Assembly (NCBI GenBank): GCA_951802115.1
Contig: CATOPL010000006.1
Location: 62,001 to 126,000 of the forward strand
From: an uncultured Lachnospiraceae bacterium
Lineage (GTDB): Bacteria > Bacillota > Clostridia > Lachnospirales > Lachnospiraceae
Direction: 5' to 3'
Length of the DNA stretch: 64,000 nt
Of this stretch, positions 11,441-58,399 are shown one piece after another. The first letter of the stretch is position 1. Every line of letters starts with the position of its first letter. The position numbers and the translations under genes were made by a program. The notes under the pieces were generated by a model that had not been told where the DNA came from, ran no database searches, and saw only the letters and a list, made by a program, of their open reading frames with translations.

Positions 11441-12862
11441 TTAAAATCTAAAATCCCGTTTTCCTTCTGCGATATCGTGGATATGTTCTGCGGCGATCCG
11501 CTTTACTTTGGGATTGGGAATCTTTTTAAGCTCTTGTTCAATCAGTTCCATGCCGATTTTCCTGGTTTCGTCGCCGGCATAATCCTCCAGATATTCTTTC
11601 AGCGTCATCAGTGCGTTCGGATGACAGCAGTTTAAAATCTGCATGTTTTTACAGAGAGCCATGAACCGGTCTCCGGTCCGACCTTCCCGATAGCAGGCAG
11701 TACAGAAGCTGGGGATATAGCCCAGTTTTATCAGCCAGTTTACGACTTCATCCAGAGTTCTCTGATCACTGACATCAAACTGAGCGCTGGTCACTTCTTC
11801 CGGTGTTTCCGGTTCTGCATATCCGCCTACACTGGTTTTTGAGGCTCCGCTGATCTGGGATACTCCCAGCGGAAGAACGCGTTCTCTTACTTCCTGGCTT
11901 TCCCTGGTGGAGATGATCATGCCGGTATAGGGAACAGCGATACGGATCAGAGCGCAGATCTTTGCAAAAATATCGTCGCTGATGCTGTTGTCAAAAGCAG
12001 ACGGATCAATATCGTCTGCATGTTTGATTCTGGGAACACTGATCGTGTGCGGTCCTACTCCGTGGACTGCTTCCAGATGCTCTGCATGCATCAGAAGTCC
12101 GGCGAATTCGTAGCGGTACAATTCCAGTCCGAACAGGACTCCCAGCCCTACATCGTCGATACCGCCTTCCATGGCCCGGTCCATGGCTTCCGTGTGATAA
12201 GCATAATCGTGTTTCGGGCCTGTGGGATGGAGTTTCTCATAGCTTTCCCTGTGATAAGTTTCTTGAAACAAAATATAAGTTCCGATCTCCGCTTCCTTCA
12301 GTTTGCGGTAGTTTTCAACAGTTGTCGCCGCGATATTGACGTTTACTCTGCGAATAGCACCGTTTTTGTGCTTGATACTGTAGATCGTATGGATACATTC
12401 CAGGATGTAGTCGATGGGATTGTTGACCGGATCTTCTCCGGCTTCTATGGCCAGTCTTTTGTGTCCCATATCCTGCAGGGCAGTTACTTCCTTAATGATC
12501 TCCTCCTGCGTCAGTTTTTTTCTGGCAATATGTTTGTTTTTGGCATGATACGGGCAGTAGACGCATCCGTTGACACAATAGTTGGACAGATACAGCGGTG
12601 CAAATAGAACAATTCGGTTCCCATAATAGTCTTTTTTCAACTGCTCTGCCAGGGCGAAGATTTCATTTACTTTTTCCGGAAGCTCACAGGCCAGAAGTAC
12701 GGACGCTTCGCGGTGCGTCAATCCTTTGCGTTCTTTGGCCTTATGAAGAATCTGATCGATGACTTCAAGATTCTCTTTGTTGGCGTCTGCATAGGCCAGC
12801 GTCTCCCGGATTTCCTCGTCAGAGATGAATTCCTCTGCTTTTAATGATGATACATTGTACAT
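11441..12862 (-). CDS. hydG: [FeFe] hydrogenase H-cluster radical SAM maturase HydG
   Basis: A 473-residue radical SAM enzyme of the ThiH/HydG type. The SAM cluster motif is CVNGCVYC (Cx3Cx2C, residues about 97-104). The C-terminal region carries the auxiliary-cluster cysteines (CTACYREGRTGDRFM, then NCCHPNALMTLKEYLEDY). HydG cleaves tyrosine to supply the CO and CN ligands of the H-cluster. AAAGGAG precedes the ATG. It lies in a minus-strand unit behind a TM1266-type regulator and diverges from hydC-hydB-hydA, which encode its client enzyme. The other maturases, HydE and HydF, are not in the window. Confidence 0.95.
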   Translation of the reverse strand: MYNVSSLKAEEFISDEEIRETLAYADANKENLEVIDQILHKAKERKGLTHREASVLLACELPEKVNEIFALAEQLKKDYYGNRIVLFAPLYLSNYCVNGCVYCPYHAKNKHIARKKLTQEEIIKEVTALQDMGHKRLAIEAGEDPVNNPIDYILECIHTIYSIKHKNGAIRRVNVNIAATTVENYRKLKEAEIGTYILFQETYHRESYEKLHPTGPKHDYAYHTEAMDRAMEGGIDDVGLGVLFGLELYRYEFAGLLMHAEHLEAVHGVGPHTISVPRIKHADDIDPSAFDNSISDDIFAKICALIRIAVPYTGMIISTRESQEVRERVLPLGVSQISGASKTSVGGYAEPETPEEVTSAQFDVSDQRTLDEVVNWLIKLGYIPSFCTACYREGRTGDRFMALCKNMQILNCCHPNALMTLKEYLEDYAGDETRKIGMELIEQELKKIPNPKVKRIAAEHIHDIAEGKRDFRF

Positions 12863-13011
12863 GATAAATGTACGCTCCTTTCTTTTCGGTCAGGCGGGCA
12901 GAACAGATAAAACTGAGCCGCGGCTTCCCGATTAGTATAATTTTTAATATGTAAAGCTGAGCAGTCGCTTATCTGTAAAAAGTCAGTACTCAGCCGCCAT
13001 ACAGCAGAAAA

Positions 13012-13266
13012 CTAAACACTTTTTATATTGGAATACACAGTCTTGGCGGTAACGCCCTGAAGTCTTCCGATCTTTCCTGACAGTGCATTTATGATGTTCT
13101 GCGGCGCGTCTACTGCAACACTGATAATATTTACTTTCCGTTCCCGGTAAGGAATTCCCATTCTTCCTATAATATAACTTCCGTATTCATGCAGAAGACT
13201 GTTTAGGTGTTCAACGGCATCTACATTTTCCACAATGATCCCAATCAGTGCAATTCTTGTTTCCAT
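13012..13266 (-). CDS. TM1266-family iron-only hydrogenase system regulator
   Basis: An 84-residue ACT-like ferredoxin-fold protein (METRIALIGIIVEN, then GSYIIGRMGIPYRERKVNIISV and a terminal ITAKTVYSN-like strand). This family sits beside hydrogenase maturation genes in many anaerobes and is presumed to sense or bind a small ligand; the ligand is not established from sequence. It is the first gene of the minus-strand unit and is followed by hydG after about 150 bases. A good promoter stands upstream at 13321-13349. Confidence 0.88.
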   Translation of the reverse strand: METRIALIGIIVENVDAVEHLNSLLHEYGSYIIGRMGIPYRERKVNIISVAVDAPQNIINALSGKIGRLQGVTAKTVYSNIKSV

Positions 13267-13320
13267 GCAATTTCTCCAAAAACAGATTTGGTTTTAAAAT
13301 GTTGTGAAATACTGATATAA

Positions 13321-13349
13321 ATTTTAACACAGTATTCTGAAAATAACAA
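13321..13349 (-). promoter_or_regulatory. Promoter of the TM1266-hydG unit
   Basis: On the minus strand TTGTTA (13344-13349) and TAAAAT (13321-13326) are 17 bases apart. The remaining 170 bases up to hydC are A/T-rich, with TTTGTACA occurring twice (near 13430 and 13485), possibly part of a redox operator. Confidence 0.65.
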
Positions 13350-13520
13350 CTATTTATAATATTCGTTGGAAGTGATTTTTTGATAATATGGGTAAAAACA
13401 TACAAATATAATGGGGTAATTCTGTGCGTTTTGTACATTGTGTAAAATGCAGCGGAGTGATAAAGTTATATGTGTATATATGTGCGGTTTGTACAATCAA
13501 CAAGCAAGGAGGAAAAACGA

Positions 13521-13997
13521 ATGCTGGATCAGTCTTATTATCGTAAGACAGATGAGATTATTGAGCATTATGGCCGCAAGGCAGGCTCATTAATCCCAAT
13601 CATGCAGGATATTCAGGCAGAATATCGTTATCTGCCGGGAGAACTGCTGACCTATGTGGCAAAGGAGATCGGAATCAAGGAGGCGAAAGCTTACAGTGTG
13701 GCTACCTTCTATGAGAATTTCTCTTTTGAGGCAAAGGGAAAATATGTGATCAAGGTATGTGACGGCACAGCCTGTCATGTCCGGAAATCCACACCGGTGC
13801 TGGAAGCACTCTGGAAGGAACTGGGACTCAGCAAGAAGAAACATACGACAGATGATATGATGTTTACTGTAGAAACAGTATCATGCCTGGGCGCATGCGG
13901 TCTTGCTCCGACGATGATGGTAAACGAAGATGTATATCCTTCTATGACACCGGAAAAGGCACTTGCAGTAATTGAAGAATTGAGAGGTAAGGGCTGA
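13521..13997 (+). CDS. hydC: Electron-bifurcating hydrogenase subunit HydC (NuoE-like, [2Fe-2S])
   Basis: The ATG at 13521, with AGGAGG eight bases upstream, gives 158 residues. The thioredoxin-like ferredoxin fold carries four cysteines for one [2Fe-2S] cluster: CDGTACH (C-x4-C) and CLGACG (C-x3-C). N-terminal helices (IPIMQDIQAEYRYLP) match NuoE. It is the small subunit of the HydABC complex, which couples H2 turnover to NAD(H) and ferredoxin. Its stop overlaps the start of hydB by one base. A longer start at 13470 has no ribosome site. Confidence 0.93.
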   Translation: MLDQSYYRKTDEIIEHYGRKAGSLIPIMQDIQAEYRYLPGELLTYVAKEIGIKEAKAYSVATFYENFSFEAKGKYVIKVCDGTACHVRKSTPVLEALWKELGLSKKKHTTDDMMFTVETVSCLGACGLAPTMMVNEDVYPSMTPEKALAVIEELRGKG

Positions 13998-15883
13998 TGA
14001 TTAAAAACAAAGAAGAACTGTTACAGGTGCGTGAGTCAGCCAGAGAACAGGTAGCAGCGTATGACTGCAGGATACTTGTCTGTTCCGGTACCGGCTGTAT
14101 TGCAACAGGATCTGCGAAGATCTACGAAGAATTCCTGACTCTGACCAAAGATGCTCCGGGTATCGTACTCGATTTTGCTCCTCATGATGAGGGAGAGCAT
14201 GACCATGTGGGCGTGAAGAAGACCGGGTGTCAGGGCTTCTGCGAACTGGGCCCTCTGGTCCGTATTCAGAAAGGTGACGAAGTCATTCAGTACGTAAAAG
14301 TTCAGGTGGAAGACTGCAAGGAGATCTTTGAATCTACGGTTGTAGGCAATGAAGTGGTAGATCGTCTTCTCTATACAAAGAAAGATGTTCATTATAAGCA
14401 TCCGGAAGATATTCCGTTCATGGCGAAGCAGACCAGGATCGTTCTGGAGAACTGCGGACGCGTGGATGCAGAGTCTCTGGACGAATATATCGCAGCAGGC
14501 GGCTTCGAGGCCCTGACCAAGGCTATGTTCGATATGAGCAGAGATGAGATTATCGATGAAGTGGACCGCTCCGGACTTCGCGGACGCGGCGGCGGCGGCT
14601 TTCCCTGCGGAAGAAAATGGAAGCAGGTGGCAAGACAGAAAGAAAAAATCCGCTATGTGGTCTGCAACGGAGACGAGGGTGATCCGGGAGCATTCATGGA
14701 TGGTTCCGTTATGGAAGGTGATCCGTTCAAGCTGATTGAAGGTATGATGATTGCCGGATATGCGGTAGAATCCACGGATGGATATATTTATGTGCGTGCA
14801 GAGTATCCGATGTCTGTAAAGAGACTGCGCCATGCCATTGCTCAGTTAGAGGAGAGAGGGCTGTTAGGCGATAATATTCTCGGTACTGATTTTTCCTTCC
14901 ATTTACATATTAACAGGGGTGCGGGCGCATTTGTCTGCGGCGAGGGTTCTGCTCTGACTGCGTCCATCGAAGGCAACAGAGGTATGCCTCGTGTAAAACC
15001 ACCTCGTACAGTAGAGAAGGGACTGTGGGAAAAACCGACGGTTCTGAACAATGTAGAGACTTATGCGAATGTTCCGAAGATTATTCTTCAGGGCGCAGAC
15101 TGGTACCGGACCATCGGTACAGAGGGCAGTCCGGGAACAAAGACCTTCTCTTTGACCGGTTCCATCGAGAATACGGGCCTGATTGAGGTACCGATGGGAA
15201 GTACTCTTCGTGAGATCATCTTCGATATCGGCGGCGGTTTAAAGAACGGTGCTGAGTTCAAGGCAGTGCAGATCGGCGGACCGTCCGGCGGATGTCTGAC
15301 AGAGAAGCATCTTGACGAGCCTCTTGATTTTGATTCCGTGAAGAAGTTCAATGCCATTGTCGGTTCCGGCGGTATGGTAGTTATGGATACCAATACCTGT
15401 ATGGTGGAGGTTGCACGTTTCTTCATGAGCTTCACCCAGAGAGAATCCTGCGGAAAATGTGTGCCCTGCCGGGAAGGTACCAAAAGAATGCTGGAGATTC
15501 TCGAAAAGATCGTAGCCGGTGAGGGCGAGATGGAAGATCTTGACCGTCTGGAAGAGCTGGCGAACATGATTCGCAGCATGGCTCTGTGCGGACTTGGCAA
15601 GAGCGCCCCGCTTCCGGTTATCAGTACGCTGAAAACCTTCAGGGATGAGTATGTTGAGCATATCGTGGATAAGAAATGTCCGGCAAAAGTCTGTCAGGCA
15701 ATGCGCCGCTTCTCCATCAATCCGGAGTACTGCAAAGGCTGCGGCAAGTGTGCGAAGAACTGTCCGGTGGGCGCGATCACAGGTGTCCGCAAAGAATGCT
15801 ATCATATCAACCCGAAACTTTGTATCAAGTGCGGCGCATGTAAGGATAACTGCGCATTTGACGCGATTTATATCGAGGAATAG
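13997..15883 (+). CDS. hydB: Electron-bifurcating hydrogenase subunit HydB (NuoF-like, FMN and FeS)
   Basis: A 628-residue protein with three parts. An N-terminal thioredoxin-like [2Fe-2S] domain (CSGTGC and CQGFCE) comes first. The NuoF core follows, with the NAD site GRGGGGFPCGRKW, the FMN region CNGDEGDPGAFMD, and the [4Fe-4S] site ESCGKCVPCREG. A C-terminal pair of ferredoxin motifs (CKGCGKCAKNCPVGAI and CIKCGACKDNCAFDAI) ends the chain. This is the flavin subunit of HydABC that binds NADH. Length and layout match bifurcating hydrogenases of clostridia. It overlaps hydC by one base and hydA follows after 11 bases. Confidence 0.95.
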   Translation: MIKNKEELLQVRESAREQVAAYDCRILVCSGTGCIATGSAKIYEEFLTLTKDAPGIVLDFAPHDEGEHDHVGVKKTGCQGFCELGPLVRIQKGDEVIQYVKVQVEDCKEIFESTVVGNEVVDRLLYTKKDVHYKHPEDIPFMAKQTRIVLENCGRVDAESLDEYIAAGGFEALTKAMFDMSRDEIIDEVDRSGLRGRGGGGFPCGRKWKQVARQKEKIRYVVCNGDEGDPGAFMDGSVMEGDPFKLIEGMMIAGYAVESTDGYIYVRAEYPMSVKRLRHAIAQLEERGLLGDNILGTDFSFHLHINRGAGAFVCGEGSALTASIEGNRGMPRVKPPRTVEKGLWEKPTVLNNVETYANVPKIILQGADWYRTIGTEGSPGTKTFSLTGSIENTGLIEVPMGSTLREIIFDIGGGLKNGAEFKAVQIGGPSGGCLTEKHLDEPLDFDSVKKFNAIVGSGGMVVMDTNTCMVEVARFFMSFTQRESCGKCVPCREGTKRMLEILEKIVAGEGEMEDLDRLEELANMIRSMALCGLGKSAPLPVISTLKTFRDEYVEHIVDKKCPAKVCQAMRRFSINPEYCKGCGKCAKNCPVGAITGVRKECYHINPKLCIKCGACKDNCAFDAIYIEE

Positions 15884-27081: not shown

Positions 27082-27110
27082 TTGACGGTTCACAGAGTAT
27101 CGATTATAAT
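27082..27110 (+). promoter_or_regulatory. Strong promoter driving the cobalamin riboswitch RNA
   Basis: TTGACG (27082-27087) and a perfect TATAAT (27105-27110) are 17 bases apart. The predicted start near 27117 falls at the 5' edge of the riboswitch, so the riboswitch is transcribed from its own promoter rather than from the DUF711 gene. Confidence 0.85.
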
Positions 27111-27116
27111 AAGTAA

Positions 27117-27332
27117 CGTGCAGAGAATGCTGTGTCAAGTGCGCATGGAAGTGCGAAAAGGGAATCAGGTGTGAATCCTGAACGATCCGGTCACTGTATT
27201 CGGAGAGTCTGCCTTCGGTATCCCATTGCAGAACCCGCGAGAAACATGCGAGAAGGGGAAGACAGACATTTGATCCGTAAGCCAGGAAACCTGCTTGACA
27301 TATGAGATGAGCTTCCGTGCAGAGCGTTACAT
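27117..27332 (+). promoter_or_regulatory. Cobalamin (B12) riboswitch
   Basis: The conserved core of the cobalamin aptamer is visible in order: AAAAGGGAA, CAGGTGTGAATCCTG, GGTCACTGTA, then GGGGAAGACAGACA, GATCCGTAAGCCAGGA and AACCTGC. Spacing and order match the classical btuB-type aptamer. Downstream, GACAGGA (27339-27345) pairs with TCCTGTC (27357-27363), hiding an AGGAGG and the ATG of a 12-codon frame, and could be the expression platform. The next gene, kdpE, is on the opposite strand, so no B12-related gene is controlled in cis. Confidence 0.88.
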
Positions 27333-27525
27333 CCAACAGACAGGAGGAATGGCGCATCCTGTCTTGAATGGTCGACTTGTGGGTTAAGGCGGCTTACAGT
27401 ATGTAGCTGTTTATATAAAAACGGCTATTGATGAATCTCATGCAGTCATGCACAGACATAGAACCGGATGTATATGCGATAACCTCCATAAAACAAATCG
27501 CATAGAATGGCGCATCCGCATTACA

Positions 27526-27587
27526 GACGCTCCCCCGCGGTGCAGGTTTCCTGAGTATCCTGCTTCCGCGGGAGAGCGTCCGTTTTT
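27526..27587 (+). terminator. Strong terminator of the riboswitch RNA
   Basis: GACGCTC-C-CCCGCGG (27526-27540) pairs with CCGCGGG-A-GAGCGTC (27566-27580) with one mismatch. An inner GCAGG/CCTGC extends the stem, and CGTTTTT follows on the + strand. Only A/C-rich sequence follows on the minus strand, so it mainly serves the + transcript. Confidence 0.85.
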
Positions 27588-27594
27588 ACGTTTG

Positions 27595-28299
27595 CTAATC
27601 TTCCTCCGCCATCCGGTAGCCAACGCCGATCTCTGTAAAAATATAGATTGGTTCGGCAGGATTGGGTTCGATCTTTCGCCGGATATTGGCCATGTTTACG
27701 CGGAGAATCGTATTGTCGCTTTCGGAATAAGGCCCCCAGATATGCTCAATCAGCCGATCATACAACAGGACTCTTCCGCAGTTTTTTGCCAGAAGTGCCA
27801 CAATTTTGAATTCGTTCTGCGTCAGATGGATTTCTTTTCCGTCCCGTGTGACGAGATGCTTTTCAAAATCGATGGTCAGTCCGCCGGAGTGATAGGAGCG
27901 TTCGGAGGCAGAGCTGCCGTTTTGCAGCTGGCTGCTGTGCCGCAGGGCAGTACGGATACGGGCCAGCAGTTCCGAGTTGCCGAAAGGCTTTGTAATGTAG
28001 TCGTCGGCGCCCTGATCCAGTGCCTGTACCTTGTCGTCTTCCTGAATTCTGGCAGAGATCACAATAATCGGGGTGCTGTTCCATTCCCGGAGTCTTGTGA
28101 TCAATTTCATGCCGTCCATGTCAGGAAGACCCAGATCCAGAAGAATCAGATCTGGACACTGGGAAGCGGCCTGGGATAAGCCGTCTCTTGCTGTGGCGGC
28201 CGAAAGAACCTGATAATGCTGGGAAGTCAGTACGGAAGTAATGAAATTTCGGATGTTTTTTTCATCTTCAATCACAAGGATTCTGATCATCTGGTTCAT
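27595..28299 (-). CDS. kdpE: KdpE-like OmpR-family response regulator
   Basis: The ATG at 28299, after AGGAGG, gives 234 residues. A receiver domain (VIEDEKN, phospho-acceptor Asp in LLDLGLPDMDGM, Lys in TKPFGNSELLARIR) is followed by a winged helix (LTQNEFKIVALL, NTILRVNMANIRRKIEPNP, GVGYRM). The receiver and linker are KdpE-like. Its start overlaps the end of the kinase gene by 32 bases, so they form one operon. No kdpFABC potassium-ATPase genes are in the window. Upstream residues of the longer frame lack a ribosome site. Confidence 0.85.
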   Translation of the reverse strand: MNQMIRILVIEDEKNIRNFITSVLTSQHYQVLSAATARDGLSQAASQCPDLILLDLGLPDMDGMKLITRLREWNSTPIIVISARIQEDDKVQALDQGADDYITKPFGNSELLARIRTALRHSSQLQNGSSASERSYHSGGLTIDFEKHLVTRDGKEIHLTQNEFKIVALLAKNCGRVLLYDRLIEHIWGPYSESDNTILRVNMANIRRKIEPNPAEPIYIFTEIGVGYRMAEED

Positions 28300-43200: not shown

Positions 43201-43210
43201 AACGCTATAT

Positions 43211-43292
43211 AAATCCGAGTCTTGTTCAGAGGGAACCTGACCATTGGGTATTGACCGCTTGAATCAATGCCTCCCGTGTTTGGAAAGGATTT
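43211..43292 (+). promoter_or_regulatory. Moco/Tuco (molybdenum/tungsten cofactor) riboswitch
   Basis: The closing stem AAATCC (43211-43216)/GGATTT (43287-43292) encloses the recognisable pattern of the Moco RNA motif: GAGGGAACCTGACC, ATTGACCGCTTGAATCAAT as an internal hairpin, ATGCCTCCCG and TTTGGAAAGG. The motif responds to the pterin metal cofactor. Its position before a tungsten AOR and TupABC fits the tungsten-cofactor form. Between it and the AOR ribosome site lies the palindrome at 43314-43340, whose left arm can also pair (CCTTA with TAAGG) with the AOR Shine-Dalgarno. Confidence 0.8.
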
Positions 43293-43313
43293 AGTCACCA
43301 GATAATTTCATAC

Positions 43314-43365: not shown

Positions 43366-45165
43366 ATGAAAACATCTTACAATGGAAAGCTGGCGCGTAT
43401 TAATCTGAGCACTGGAGAGATTAAGGTAGAGCAGCTTGACATGGAACTGGCAACAAAATTCATCGGCGGGCGCGGACTTGGAACGAAGATGCTCTATGAT
43501 GAAGGCGTGGCGACGGTGGATCCGCTGTCCGAGAATAACAAGCTGATTTATATCACCGGACCTATGACCGGTACGGCATCTCCTTCAGCGGGACGCTATA
43601 TGGTTGTGACCAAATCTCCGCTGACCGGTATGATCGCGTCCTCCAACTCCGGCGGCGTATGGGGTGCCAGACTGAAATATGCAGGCTGGGATGCTCTGAT
43701 CGTGGAAGGCAAAGCATCTGAGTGGACTTACATTAACATAGTGGATGACAAAATTGAACTGCTTTCTGCAAAAGATTATGTGGGTATGATGAGTGAGGAA
43801 GCGGATGAGAAGCTTAAAGAAGCACATCCGGGCTGCAATGTACTCAATATCGGACCGGCAGGAGAGCATCTGTCTCTGCTGGCGGCGATTATGAACGATA
43901 AGGATCGTGCAGCCGGCAGAAGCGGCGTGGGAGCTGTTATGGGTTCCAAGAATCTGAAGGCAATCACCGTTACAGCAACGGCGAAAGTAGTTGAGCCTTT
44001 CGATGCGGCGAAGTTAAAAGAAGCAACCAAGGCATGCAATCAGAAAATTCGTGAGAACGGCGTTACCGGAGGCGGACTTCCCACTTATGGAACGGCAGTA
44101 CTGGTTAATATTATCAACAACACCGGTTCTTTCCCGACCAAGAACTGGCAGGAGTCTTATTATCCGGAAGCAGACGATATCTCCGGCGAGACTCTGAAAG
44201 ATACCTATCTGGTAAAGAATGCGGCCTGCCACAGATGTCCGATTGCCTGCGGCCGTGTGATCAAGGTAGGCGACAAGGTCGTCGGCGGACCAGAGTACGA
44301 GCCTCTGTGGGCGTACGGCGGAAACTGCGGCCTGCATGATCTGAATGCGATAGATGAAGCAAATATGTGGTGTAATGAATATGGACTGGATGCGATCTCC
44401 ACACCCTGTACGATCGCAGCGGCCATGGAATTATTTGATAAAGGATATATTAAGGAAGAAGAGTGTGATGGCATTCCTCTTGCATGGGGCAGCAGTGAGG
44501 CTATCGTAGAATGGACCAAACGGATGGGAGAAGGAAAGCTTCCGCTGGCAAAACTGATGGCAGACGGTTCCTATCGTCTTTGTGAGCATTACGGACATCC
44601 GGAGATTTCCATGAGTGTGAAGAAGCAGGAAATGCCGGCGTACGATGCAAGAGGCATCCAGGGCATCGGCATTACATATGCCACCAGCAACCGCGGTGGC
44701 TGTCATGTGCGTGGATACCTGATCTCCCCGGAGGTGCTGGGTCTTCCGGAGCAGCTGGATCGTACGACTACAGAAGGAAAGGCGCAGTGGTGTAAGATTT
44801 TCCAGGATCTGACAGCAGTGATTGACTCCATGGGTCTGTGTCTGTTCTCGTCCTTCGCACTGGGTGCGCCGGACTATGCAGCGCTTCTGAATGCAGGTAC
44901 CGGAACTGAGTATACGCCGGAAGAGCTTCTGACGGTAGGTGAACGAATCTACAACATTGAGCGTCTGTTTAACAAGGCGGCAGGTATGAAGCCGGAGGAT
45001 GACAGACTTCCGAAGCGTCTGACAGAAGAGCCGATCTCATCCGGACCGTCCAAGGGACAGATAAGCCAGATCAACGTGACACTTCCGCAGTATTATGAGG
45101 TGAGAGGCTGGGAGAATGCGTTCCCGACCAAAGAGACATTGGAGAGACTGGGACTGACAGAGTAA
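43366..45165 (+). CDS. aor: Tungsten-dependent aldehyde:ferredoxin oxidoreductase
   Basis: A 599-residue AOR-family protein. The N-terminal pterin-binding domain has NGKLARINLSTGEI, FIGGRGLGTKMLYDE and SPLTGMIASSNSGGVWG. The middle carries the cluster cysteines CHRCPIACGR (C-x2-C-x3-C) and a later CLFSSF, plus GGPEYEPLWAYGGNCG. It interconverts aldehydes and carboxylates with ferredoxin, using a W-bis-pterin and one [4Fe-4S] cluster. AAGGAGG is eight bases before the chosen ATG. A Moco/Tuco riboswitch controls it, and cofactor and tungstate-transport genes follow. The precise aldehyde substrate is unknown. Confidence 0.93.
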   Translation: MKTSYNGKLARINLSTGEIKVEQLDMELATKFIGGRGLGTKMLYDEGVATVDPLSENNKLIYITGPMTGTASPSAGRYMVVTKSPLTGMIASSNSGGVWGARLKYAGWDALIVEGKASEWTYINIVDDKIELLSAKDYVGMMSEEADEKLKEAHPGCNVLNIGPAGEHLSLLAAIMNDKDRAAGRSGVGAVMGSKNLKAITVTATAKVVEPFDAAKLKEATKACNQKIRENGVTGGGLPTYGTAVLVNIINNTGSFPTKNWQESYYPEADDISGETLKDTYLVKNAACHRCPIACGRVIKVGDKVVGGPEYEPLWAYGGNCGLHDLNAIDEANMWCNEYGLDAISTPCTIAAAMELFDKGYIKEEECDGIPLAWGSSEAIVEWTKRMGEGKLPLAKLMADGSYRLCEHYGHPEISMSVKKQEMPAYDARGIQGIGITYATSNRGGCHVRGYLISPEVLGLPEQLDRTTTEGKAQWCKIFQDLTAVIDSMGLCLFSSFALGAPDYAALLNAGTGTEYTPEELLTVGERIYNIERLFNKAAGMKPEDDRLPKRLTEEPISSGPSKGQISQINVTLPQYYEVRGWENAFPTKETLERLGLTE

Positions 45166-57560: not shown

Positions 57561-58142
57561 TTATTTCTGTGCAGGCAACGCTACACGGATGATTCTCTGG
57601 AAAGCTTCGATAAATATGTAGACAATGATAATATTTACGAAGAAATTCAGCGTACATTTGATCAGTCTGCTGGTTAACAGTACCTGAAGCGGAGTTCCAT
57701 ACATCAGATACAGCCACAGAGACGTGAATGTGATACTGATAAGATACTCCACAAACGCACAGCCCGCAGCGCGGAATTTTGTCACCCGTGCTTTGTAAAG
57801 GATCAGGCCGCACAACGCGCCGACCAGAGCATAACTGAGTGAAAAACCCGGGAAATAGGCAAAGCCGCGAACCAGACAGTTCAGCATATCGCCGAGGAAT
57901 CCCACTACGAATCCCATAACCGGTCCGCCGACCATTCCGGCGGCGATAAATGCGAGAAAACCGATTCGAATTTCCAGCGTGGGGGAGAGTACAATGTTAC
58001 AGAAGGAAAGAACCACATAAAGGGCGATCAACAGACCGCACATACAAAGATGGGGCACTTTCCGGAGATTTTCGAGCTGACTCCGAAAATCCAGAGCTTC
58101 CCTGGGGCTTTTGAGACTGAAAGTATCTTTTGAAATCTGCAT
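57561..58142 (-). CDS. folT: Folate-family ECF transporter substrate-specificity component
   Basis: The ATG at 58142, with GGAGGTG upstream, gives 193 residues of a membrane protein with about five to six segments. ECF S-component traits are visible: an N-terminal LCMCGLLIALYVVLS helix, LEIRIGFLAFIAAGMVGGPVMGFVVGFLGDMLNC in the core and LSYALVGALCGLILYK. A THF riboswitch upstream identifies the substrate as folate. It captures folate and works with a shared ECF module not in this window. The longer frame from 58262 would start inside the leader RNA. Confidence 0.92.
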   Translation of the reverse strand: MQISKDTFSLKSPREALDFRSQLENLRKVPHLCMCGLLIALYVVLSFCNIVLSPTLEIRIGFLAFIAAGMVGGPVMGFVVGFLGDMLNCLVRGFAYFPGFSLSYALVGALCGLILYKARVTKFRAAGCAFVEYLISITFTSLWLYLMYGTPLQVLLTSRLIKCTLNFFVNIIIVYIFIEAFQRIIRVALPAQK

Positions 58143-58281: not shown

Positions 58282-58378
58282 GTAGCAACGGGTGCGAATC
58301 AAACATCGTAAACCTCGAGGGCTTTTCGTTCCGTGACAACTCCCCATCCACGGACACTTAACGCGTAAGATTCTACTT
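58282..58378 (-). promoter_or_regulatory. Tetrahydrofolate riboswitch
   Basis: Read on the minus strand, the THF aptamer pattern is clear: GTAGAATCTTACGCGTTAAG, GTGTCCGTGGATGGGGAG, GTCACGGAACGAAAAG, then GAGGTTTACGATGTTTGATTCGCACCCG and the closing GTTGCTAC, which pairs with GTAG. It lies about 140 bases before folT. Downstream, ACATATGAG/CTCAGATGT can form a further hairpin. Confidence 0.88.
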
Positions 58379-58399
58379 CGCTATTATTTACTTGTCCTT

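Follow-up and report, generated by a model that had tools for sequence, protein, structure and literature searches.

Positions 27082-27590 of the window (the whole 64,000-nt stretch of Lachnospiraceae DNA that was analysed) hold what, judged from sequence, is a stand-alone transcription unit in which a promoter, a cobalamin aptamer, a structured RNA and a terminator follow one another and a gene is absent. That the element is real, conserved and structured is near certain, and that it is a noncoding RNA is very likely. Strong support for a stand-alone noncoding RNA following a cobalamin aptamer comes from the conservation of the element, its covarying hairpins, the lack of a reading frame common to all loci and its shifting neighbours. 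Its product is probably a B12-controlled regulatory RNA; a role as a base-pairing regulator appears likely, whereas action in trans and control by B12, the latter suggested by the aptamer, are plausible. The features of the unit are summarized in Table 1.

Table 1. Features of the RNA unit and of its convergent neighbour, in window coordinates.
Feature	Position	Strand	Remarks
Sigma-70 type promoter TTGACG-17-TATAAT	27082-27110	+	11 of 12 consensus letters
GUGCA, predicted RNA 5' end	27118-27122	+	possible partner UGCAC 27449-27453 (helix P0)
Cobalamin riboswitch aptamer	27120-27312	+	RF00174, 94.3 bits, E 3.6e-22
B12 box CAGGAAACCTGC	27283-27294	+	complementary over 12 nt to 27542-27553
UGAGAU	27303-27308	+	possible partner AUCUCA 27435-27440 (helix P14)
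P13-like hairpin	27338-27364	+	loop with GAAUGGCG, candidate L13 kissing loop
T1, terminator-like hairpin	27370-27393	+	one mismatch; double changes in 1 of 7 pairs
AAUCUCA...AUGCAC	27434-27453	+	3' partners of P14 and P0
Two-tier seed hairpin	27464-27518	+	outer stem, GAAUGGC bulge (27505-27511), inner stem, open loop
CCUCCAU, proposed seed	27483-27489	+	conserved loop, complementary to Shine-Dalgarno sequences
T2, final terminator hairpin	27526-27580	+	U-run 27583-27587; changes on both sides in 11 of 18 pairs
kdpE-like response regulator	27595-28299	-	convergent neighbour; PF00072 and PF00486

The preliminary description of this DNA had listed a TTGACG-17-TATAAT promoter, a well-conserved cobalamin aptamer, a strong terminator at 27526-27587 and a kdpE gene on the other strand without overlap, and each of these was recovered. 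TTGAC and TATAAT are invariant in all 16 loci compared (window included), and GTGCAG follows 3' of the promoter in every one. The covariance-model check that had been proposed for the aptamer (Rfam Cobalamin) matched positions 1-189 of the 189 in RF00174, well over the gathering score of 31.5 bits, and the four of the 15 relatives that were scanned all scored 88-98 bits. The terminator consists of the T2 stem, two bases and a run of five T, and the kdpE stop at 27595 lies beyond it. The predicted RNA is about 470 nt long, with approximately 270 nt between aptamer and terminator that contain no evident gene. The segment 27388-27590 has a folding energy of -70.6 kcal/mol, compared with a mean of -51.4 for shuffled sequences (z -4.2; none of 200 shuffles as good).

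Of the 17 genomes of the genus, 16 carry the unit, that of the window included. A 526-nt DNA query matched in all 16 other genomes, recovering the whole element in 15; in the remaining one (G009, 77% complete) it found only the aptamer core of another riboswitch, which by eye precedes a cobalamin gene. R1, a covariance model of the post-aptamer module, was built from 14 of the 16 loci, which match it by construction; 16 of the 17 genus genomes gave a single strong match each (E 3e-30 or better), with further weak matches (E 0.007-0.08) in three of the 16. Weak matches also occurred in five of 397 genomes drawn from the family (E 0.003-0.07), beside two genus members, and in three of 392 drawn from the order (E 0.002-0.009), beside the window's own genome. 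No cobalamin aptamer was found in the five weak loci of the family search, and R1 gave no convincing relative outside the genus among the 397 family and 392 order genomes; distant relatives may be missed because these draws overlap and were searched with stricter filters. An Rfam search of 27300-27610 returned nothing even at E up to 5, plasmid records gave no match to the element, and no report of the present RNA was found in the literature on cobalamin riboswitches and noncoding RNAs, most subscription papers lying outside the search.

The earlier statement that no substantial open reading frame follows the aptamer agrees with the comparison of loci, which revealed no reading frame common to all 16. 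In the window, a mechanical frame of 243 aa (27448-28179) runs through the terminator and then antisense to kdpE, and several loci have mechanical frames of up to 300 aa that open within the segment and continue past T2. All starts common to at least eight loci were scanned from the aptamer end to T2. The nearest to a conserved frame has 13 codons (27307-27348); its ATG at 27307 is present in all 16 loci, and in 12 it has the same end and stops just before the AUG of the P13 loop, while in the other four it is longer (26-53 codons; 26 in the window). Neither a clear ribosome-binding site nor a coding signature was found for this frame, synonymous differences being no commoner than in another frame (151 to 418 versus 151 to 409), and it is probably a chance frame within a constrained RNA. 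A small protein translated from the two AUGG sites was rejected, as those frames differ in length and sequence across the 16 loci.

The post-aptamer hairpins comprise 31 base pairs in covariation alignment A2 (14 rows, 13 distinct). In this alignment, 94.0% of cells are paired compared with 79.4% in shuffles, 21 of the 31 pairs carry double changes, and the covariation score is 0.486 versus 0.206. None of 500 shuffles was as high on four of the five covariation measures, and 20 of 500 were for the fifth, further pair types; related sequences can exceed shuffles without structure, though seldom on pair counts. Sliding controls by 1-3 columns lowered pairing to 37-56%. When RNAalifold was applied to all 16 loci, 44 of 119 consensus pairs had a double change in one sequence or more.

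The preliminary description had pointed to a perfect 8-bp hairpin with a loop complementary to Shine-Dalgarno sequences. The eight perfect pairs are there, at 27473-27504 inside the two-tier hairpin, but the loop, AACCTCCATAAAACAA, has 16 nt and not the nine letters quoted. Both sides change in 10 of the 13 pairs of the seed hairpin (14 of the 16 loci aligned) and in six of the seven pairs of the inner stem around the invariant seed; folded alone, the hairpin exceeds its shuffles by a smaller margin (z -2.3; 6 of 200 equalled or bettered it). CCTCCA is present in all 16 loci and CCTCCAT in 15, the exception being CCTCCAA in G008. The RNA thus carries a conserved, unpaired C-rich loop on a conserved and covarying stem, and the invariance of CCTCCA is as would be expected of a seed for Shine-Dalgarno sequences. 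The cross-genome comparison proposed earlier for the downstream segment, in which the hairpins covary and the loop is invariant, strengthens the point originally made about its ACCTCC loop. The apical loop of T2, UCCUGA, is invariant as well (TCCTGA in the DNA of the loci).

A 13-nt word, GAATGGCGCATCC, occurs twice in the window, in the P13 loop (27347-27359) and beside the seed stem (27505-27517), and AATGG is kept at both sites in all 16 loci; the two copies could represent two competing L13-like elements. Several further internal pairings were considered. A kiss between the seed loop and the P13 loop (CCAU-AUGG) would have 3-4 invariant pairs by eye and was rejected. Folding of CCAU back on the adjacent AUGG was ruled out by eye because the connector is too short. 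Through a perfect 12-nt match in the window, the T2 loop might act as antisense to the B12 box, but the box is nearly palindromic and most loci are one U shorter.

The genes around the unit vary. About ten different upstream neighbours were counted across the 16 loci, with a DUF711 gene in the window and an ABC transporter, a subtilisin-like protein and others elsewhere (by eye). Downstream, kdpE lies within 1.5 kb in 14 of 16 loci and is the immediate neighbour in 13. A 132-aa gene stands between the RNA and kdpE in G006 and next to the RNA in G015, where kdpE was not found, and in G003 (L111, about 11685-14586) a cobalamin-synthesis operon (cbiK, cbiC, CobB/CobQ-like) runs towards the RNA from the other strand and ends beside it. 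Since the upstream genes vary, and the downstream gene is mostly kdpE but a cobalamin operon in one locus, the RNA appears to be conserved as its own unit.

This arrangement bears on two other explanations. Under the first, read-through past T2 would interfere with the convergent response regulator gene, making the RNA an antisense regulator of kdpE. Cobalamin riboswitches of such action are known from the available excerpts of PMC9943018 and PMC8079631, the former a survey counting 292 antisense-acting riboswitch cases, and kdpE is the immediate convergent neighbour in 13 loci; nevertheless, T2 is conserved and precedes the kdpE stop, the immediate neighbour differs in three of the 16 loci (cbiK in G003, the 132-aa gene in G006 and G015), and the invariant loop would be left unexplained, which makes this explanation very unlikely. 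Under the second, the unit would be a remnant, namely an ordinary cobalamin riboswitch whose gene was lost and whose remaining sequence is leftover leader and terminator. The aptamer and the first downstream part do resemble, by eye, a riboswitch of the same genome that precedes a cobalamin gene, and T1 of the window is followed by an insertion and not by a U-run. Conservation of the whole unit in 16 of 17 genomes and a covarying 3' module with invariant loops nonetheless make a remnant extremely unlikely, and no B12 gene was found downstream on the same strand within 1.5 kb in any of the 16 loci (genes named by eye). The preliminary description had named beforehand, as an arrangement that would speak for a remnant, a B12 gene directly downstream with the structure lost; this was seen at none of the 16 loci, and in G003, where B12 genes adjoin the RNA on the other strand, the RNA structure is kept.

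The region joining aptamer and seed hairpin contains the P13-like hairpin and T1. The former is conserved, with changes on both sides in six of ten pairs, 96% of cells paired and AAUGG invariant. In the case of P. megaterium metE, an L5-L13 kissing loop steadies P13 and hence the terminator, according to the available part of PMC10653944, from which the definition of this kissing loop was taken; the P13 loop of the present RNA has, by eye, only UGG to set against CCG of L5. A run of at least four T follows T1 in 13 of the 16 loci and is missing in G002, G013 and the window, where an insertion stands in its place. With the aptamer forced in a transcript ending at T1, predicted T1 formation rises by more than 0.05 in nine of 16 loci and falls by that much in none, whereas in the full-length RNA it rises in eight and falls in five; when left unconstrained, the full-length RNA often folds with neither aptamer nor P0. 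In the free state, the 5' strand of T1 is predicted to pair with the aptamer core in some species and with the adjoining linker in others, and a single conserved antiterminator was rejected, as the partners vary from species to species. Ligand-dependent shut-off by termination is the favoured, though tentative, reading. Simple attenuation at T1 fails in the window's own genome because its T1 lacks the U-run, and therefore another route, such as RNA stability or seed display, has to be considered there.

Such a route defines a further explanation, in which the RNA is one ligand-folded device whose bound aptamer closes P0 and P14 and alters RNA stability or seed display, with no regulated termination. 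Both sides of P0 are invariant in all 16 loci, and the pairs of P14 are kept in all 16, one of its six varying (U-A to U-G in three loci); zero pairs of either helix show double changes, and because covariation is absent in both, invariance is all that suggests their pairing. With the aptamer forced, 11 of 16 full-length folds give P0 a mean pair probability of 0.7 or more, but five give it less than 0.2, and P14 attains 0.5 in only six. The absence of the U-run in three loci and the recurrence of GAAUGGC in the P13 loop and beside the seed stem would suit such a device, and the U-run kept in the other 13 argues against it. Taken together, we regard it as rather unlikely.

The explanation that best accounts for the whole, to which we give slightly better than an even chance, is a stand-alone unit in which the aptamer controls a structured RNA acting through its seed in a corrinoid-dependent manner. 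The aptamer at the 5' end would replace the leader of a gene, and the structured regulatory RNA would replace the gene. When corrinoid is scarce, polymerase would pass T1 and complete the full RNA, whose open CCUCCAU loop, perhaps together with UCCUGA of T2, may pair with ribosome-binding sites of targets and lower their translation. When corrinoid is bound, the P13/T1 region would favour a short RNA without the seed. A likely use would be to restrain B12-dependent functions at low B12, an effect that Rli55 and AspocR achieve differently in Listeria.

These two cobalamin-riboswitch-controlled noncoding RNAs of Listeria are described in the excerpts available of PMC8079631, on which the following comparisons draw. 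Like AspocR of Listeria monocytogenes, whose long form is made without B12, the present RNA has a cobalamin aptamer before a noncoding RNA; unlike AspocR, a 1,400-nt antisense to pocR, it is predicted to stop before kdpE and to overlap no gene. With Rli55 and EutX (Listeria, Enterococcus), it shares the cobalamin aptamer and a candidate intervening terminator, although the U-run of T1, found in 13 of 16 loci, is missing in the window; the long form of Rli55 is about 450 nt (PMC8079631). Rli55 and EutX carry EutV-binding hexaloops (PMC8079631, PMC8934654), and the ANTAR site recognised by EutV has A1 and G4 in such loops, as given in the available text of PMC8934654; the present RNA has no conserved hexaloop of this kind.

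That the RNA instead captures an RNA-binding protein, as Rli55 and EutX capture EutV, is made conceivable by the similar layout of aptamer, early terminator and long form of about 450 nt (PMC8079631), and one ANTAR response regulator is encoded in the window's genome. Only two of the 16 post-aptamer segments, at unrelated places, contain an A1 and G4 hexaloop whose unbroken stem has five or more pairs, by which an ANTAR decoy was rejected, and the neighbours of the ANTAR gene have, by eye, no evident B12 link; a protein decoy is improbable, although a different protein could be the one bound. At that locus (L050, G000:C1:303000-311000), the ANTAR regulator adjoins a sensor with an ABC-ATPase-like region and a triosephosphate-isomerase-like gene (neighbours by eye).

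Base pairing by riboswitch RNAs and by small RNAs has parallels in the same source. LhrC is a Listeria sRNA family with UCCC loop motifs (PMC8079631), and the present RNA resembles it in having pyrimidine-rich motifs in hairpin and terminator loops, which in LhrC pair with Shine-Dalgarno regions. The excerpts describe no ligand aptamer for LhrC, and the motifs here are CCUCCA and UCCUGA. The SAM riboswitches SreA and SreB of Listeria likewise act on distant mRNAs (PMC8079631), but SreA is the terminated leader of a real operon, whereas the present RNA lacks an operon and the part proposed to be active comes after its early terminator. The different design suggested in the preliminary description is borne out by the missing ANTAR hexaloop, which sets the RNA apart from Rli55/EutX, and by the missing antisense overlap, which separates it from AspocR. 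The best reading is that of a riboswitch-controlled, base-pairing variant of the AspocR/Rli55/EutX theme that appears to have the defining mechanism of neither.

AUGGAGG, the complement of the seed, is located 3-10 nt before an ATG at 169 sites in the window's genome, compared with 37 for a reversed control. Because AUGGAGG is so frequent before starts, the seed alone cannot name a target, and targets chosen by the seed alone were rejected as too many. The target prediction proposed earlier consequently proved unspecific with the seed alone; a look at B12-binding proteins gave a lead, the gene of a corrinoid protein as candidate target. Four B12-binding protein matches, three over the cut-off, were identified in the window's genome, and the candidate among them is a 211-aa corrinoid protein adjoining a pterin-binding methyltransferase and near a RACo-type activator. 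Orthologues were defined as a set of 13 at 86% identity or more, leaving out the copy of G005 (71%, probably a paralogue) and lower-scoring copies in G000, G002, G004 and G016. AUGGAGG precedes the start in 11 of these 13, the window's genome having UUGGAGG and G004 AGGAGG; it is absent in G005 and in the three lower-scoring copies inspected (L128, L130, L132).

Duplex energies were compared for 16 gene families, each present in at least five genomes, within two fetched regions, the corrinoid-protein family being represented by eight genomes. This family had the best median of the 16 for both the seed loop (-13.0) and the T2 loop (-9.0), followed by a uracil-DNA glycosylase-like family (-11.8, -8.8), kdpE (-11.2, -5.6) and the partner methyltransferase (-11.1, -6.5), in a comparison where the corrinoid gene was chosen post hoc among B12 genes, the gene caller is crude, the species are related and the background 'genes' include false frames that lie antisense to this very RNA. 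In single genomes, the gene ranked 1-5 among 28-41 genes for the seed loop in 10 of 11 (13 in G004) and 4-9 for the T2 loop in 10 of 11 (26 in G006). When AUGGAGG was counted over 12 families, this family alone had it in the majority of its genomes (7 of 8; 2 of 113 for the other eleven). G003 and G008 (79% and 88% complete) keep the RNA and show no corrinoid orthologue, and so the corrinoid-protein gene cannot be the only target; in G008, the only one whose seed is altered, PF02310 matched nothing.

More specifically, the product might be a B12-sparing RNA, in which the CCUCCAU and UCCUGA loops would, at low corrinoid, cover the ribosome-binding site of the corrinoid protein and probably restrain other B12-dependent functions. 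In this specific form we consider the proposal unlikely; if true, the RNA would keep a scarce cofactor from waste. RyhB is an iron-sparing RNA, of which a B12-sparing RNA would be the B12 counterpart.

As far as the excerpts of the sources cited describe them, B12-riboswitch noncoding RNAs act by antisense overlap or protein capture. If the favoured explanation is true, gut Lachnospiraceae would have a B12-riboswitch RNA acting via a base-pairing loop, with aptamer and seed module forming one small, self-contained sensor-effector RNA gene. The unit offers a small, testable system and a covariance model for finding further cases, and cautions that riboswitches lacking a downstream gene may be complete and not broken.

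Two other riboswitches are found in the window. A molybdenum/tungsten cofactor riboswitch at 43201-43306 (+; 42.7 bits) is ordinary, preceding a gene at 43366 that resembles aldehyde:ferredoxin oxidoreductase by eye, with tungstate transport and Moco genes farther downstream (by eye). A THF riboswitch at 58284-58382 (-; 77.1 bits) is followed at 57561-58142 (-) by a gene for a small membrane protein, by eye probably folT. In a genome of another genus (G029, L021 1400-3166), a cobalamin riboswitch is accompanied by terminator-like hairpins with no obvious gene close behind and is possibly another orphan; repeated short frames after it resemble, by eye, small hydrophobic toxins.
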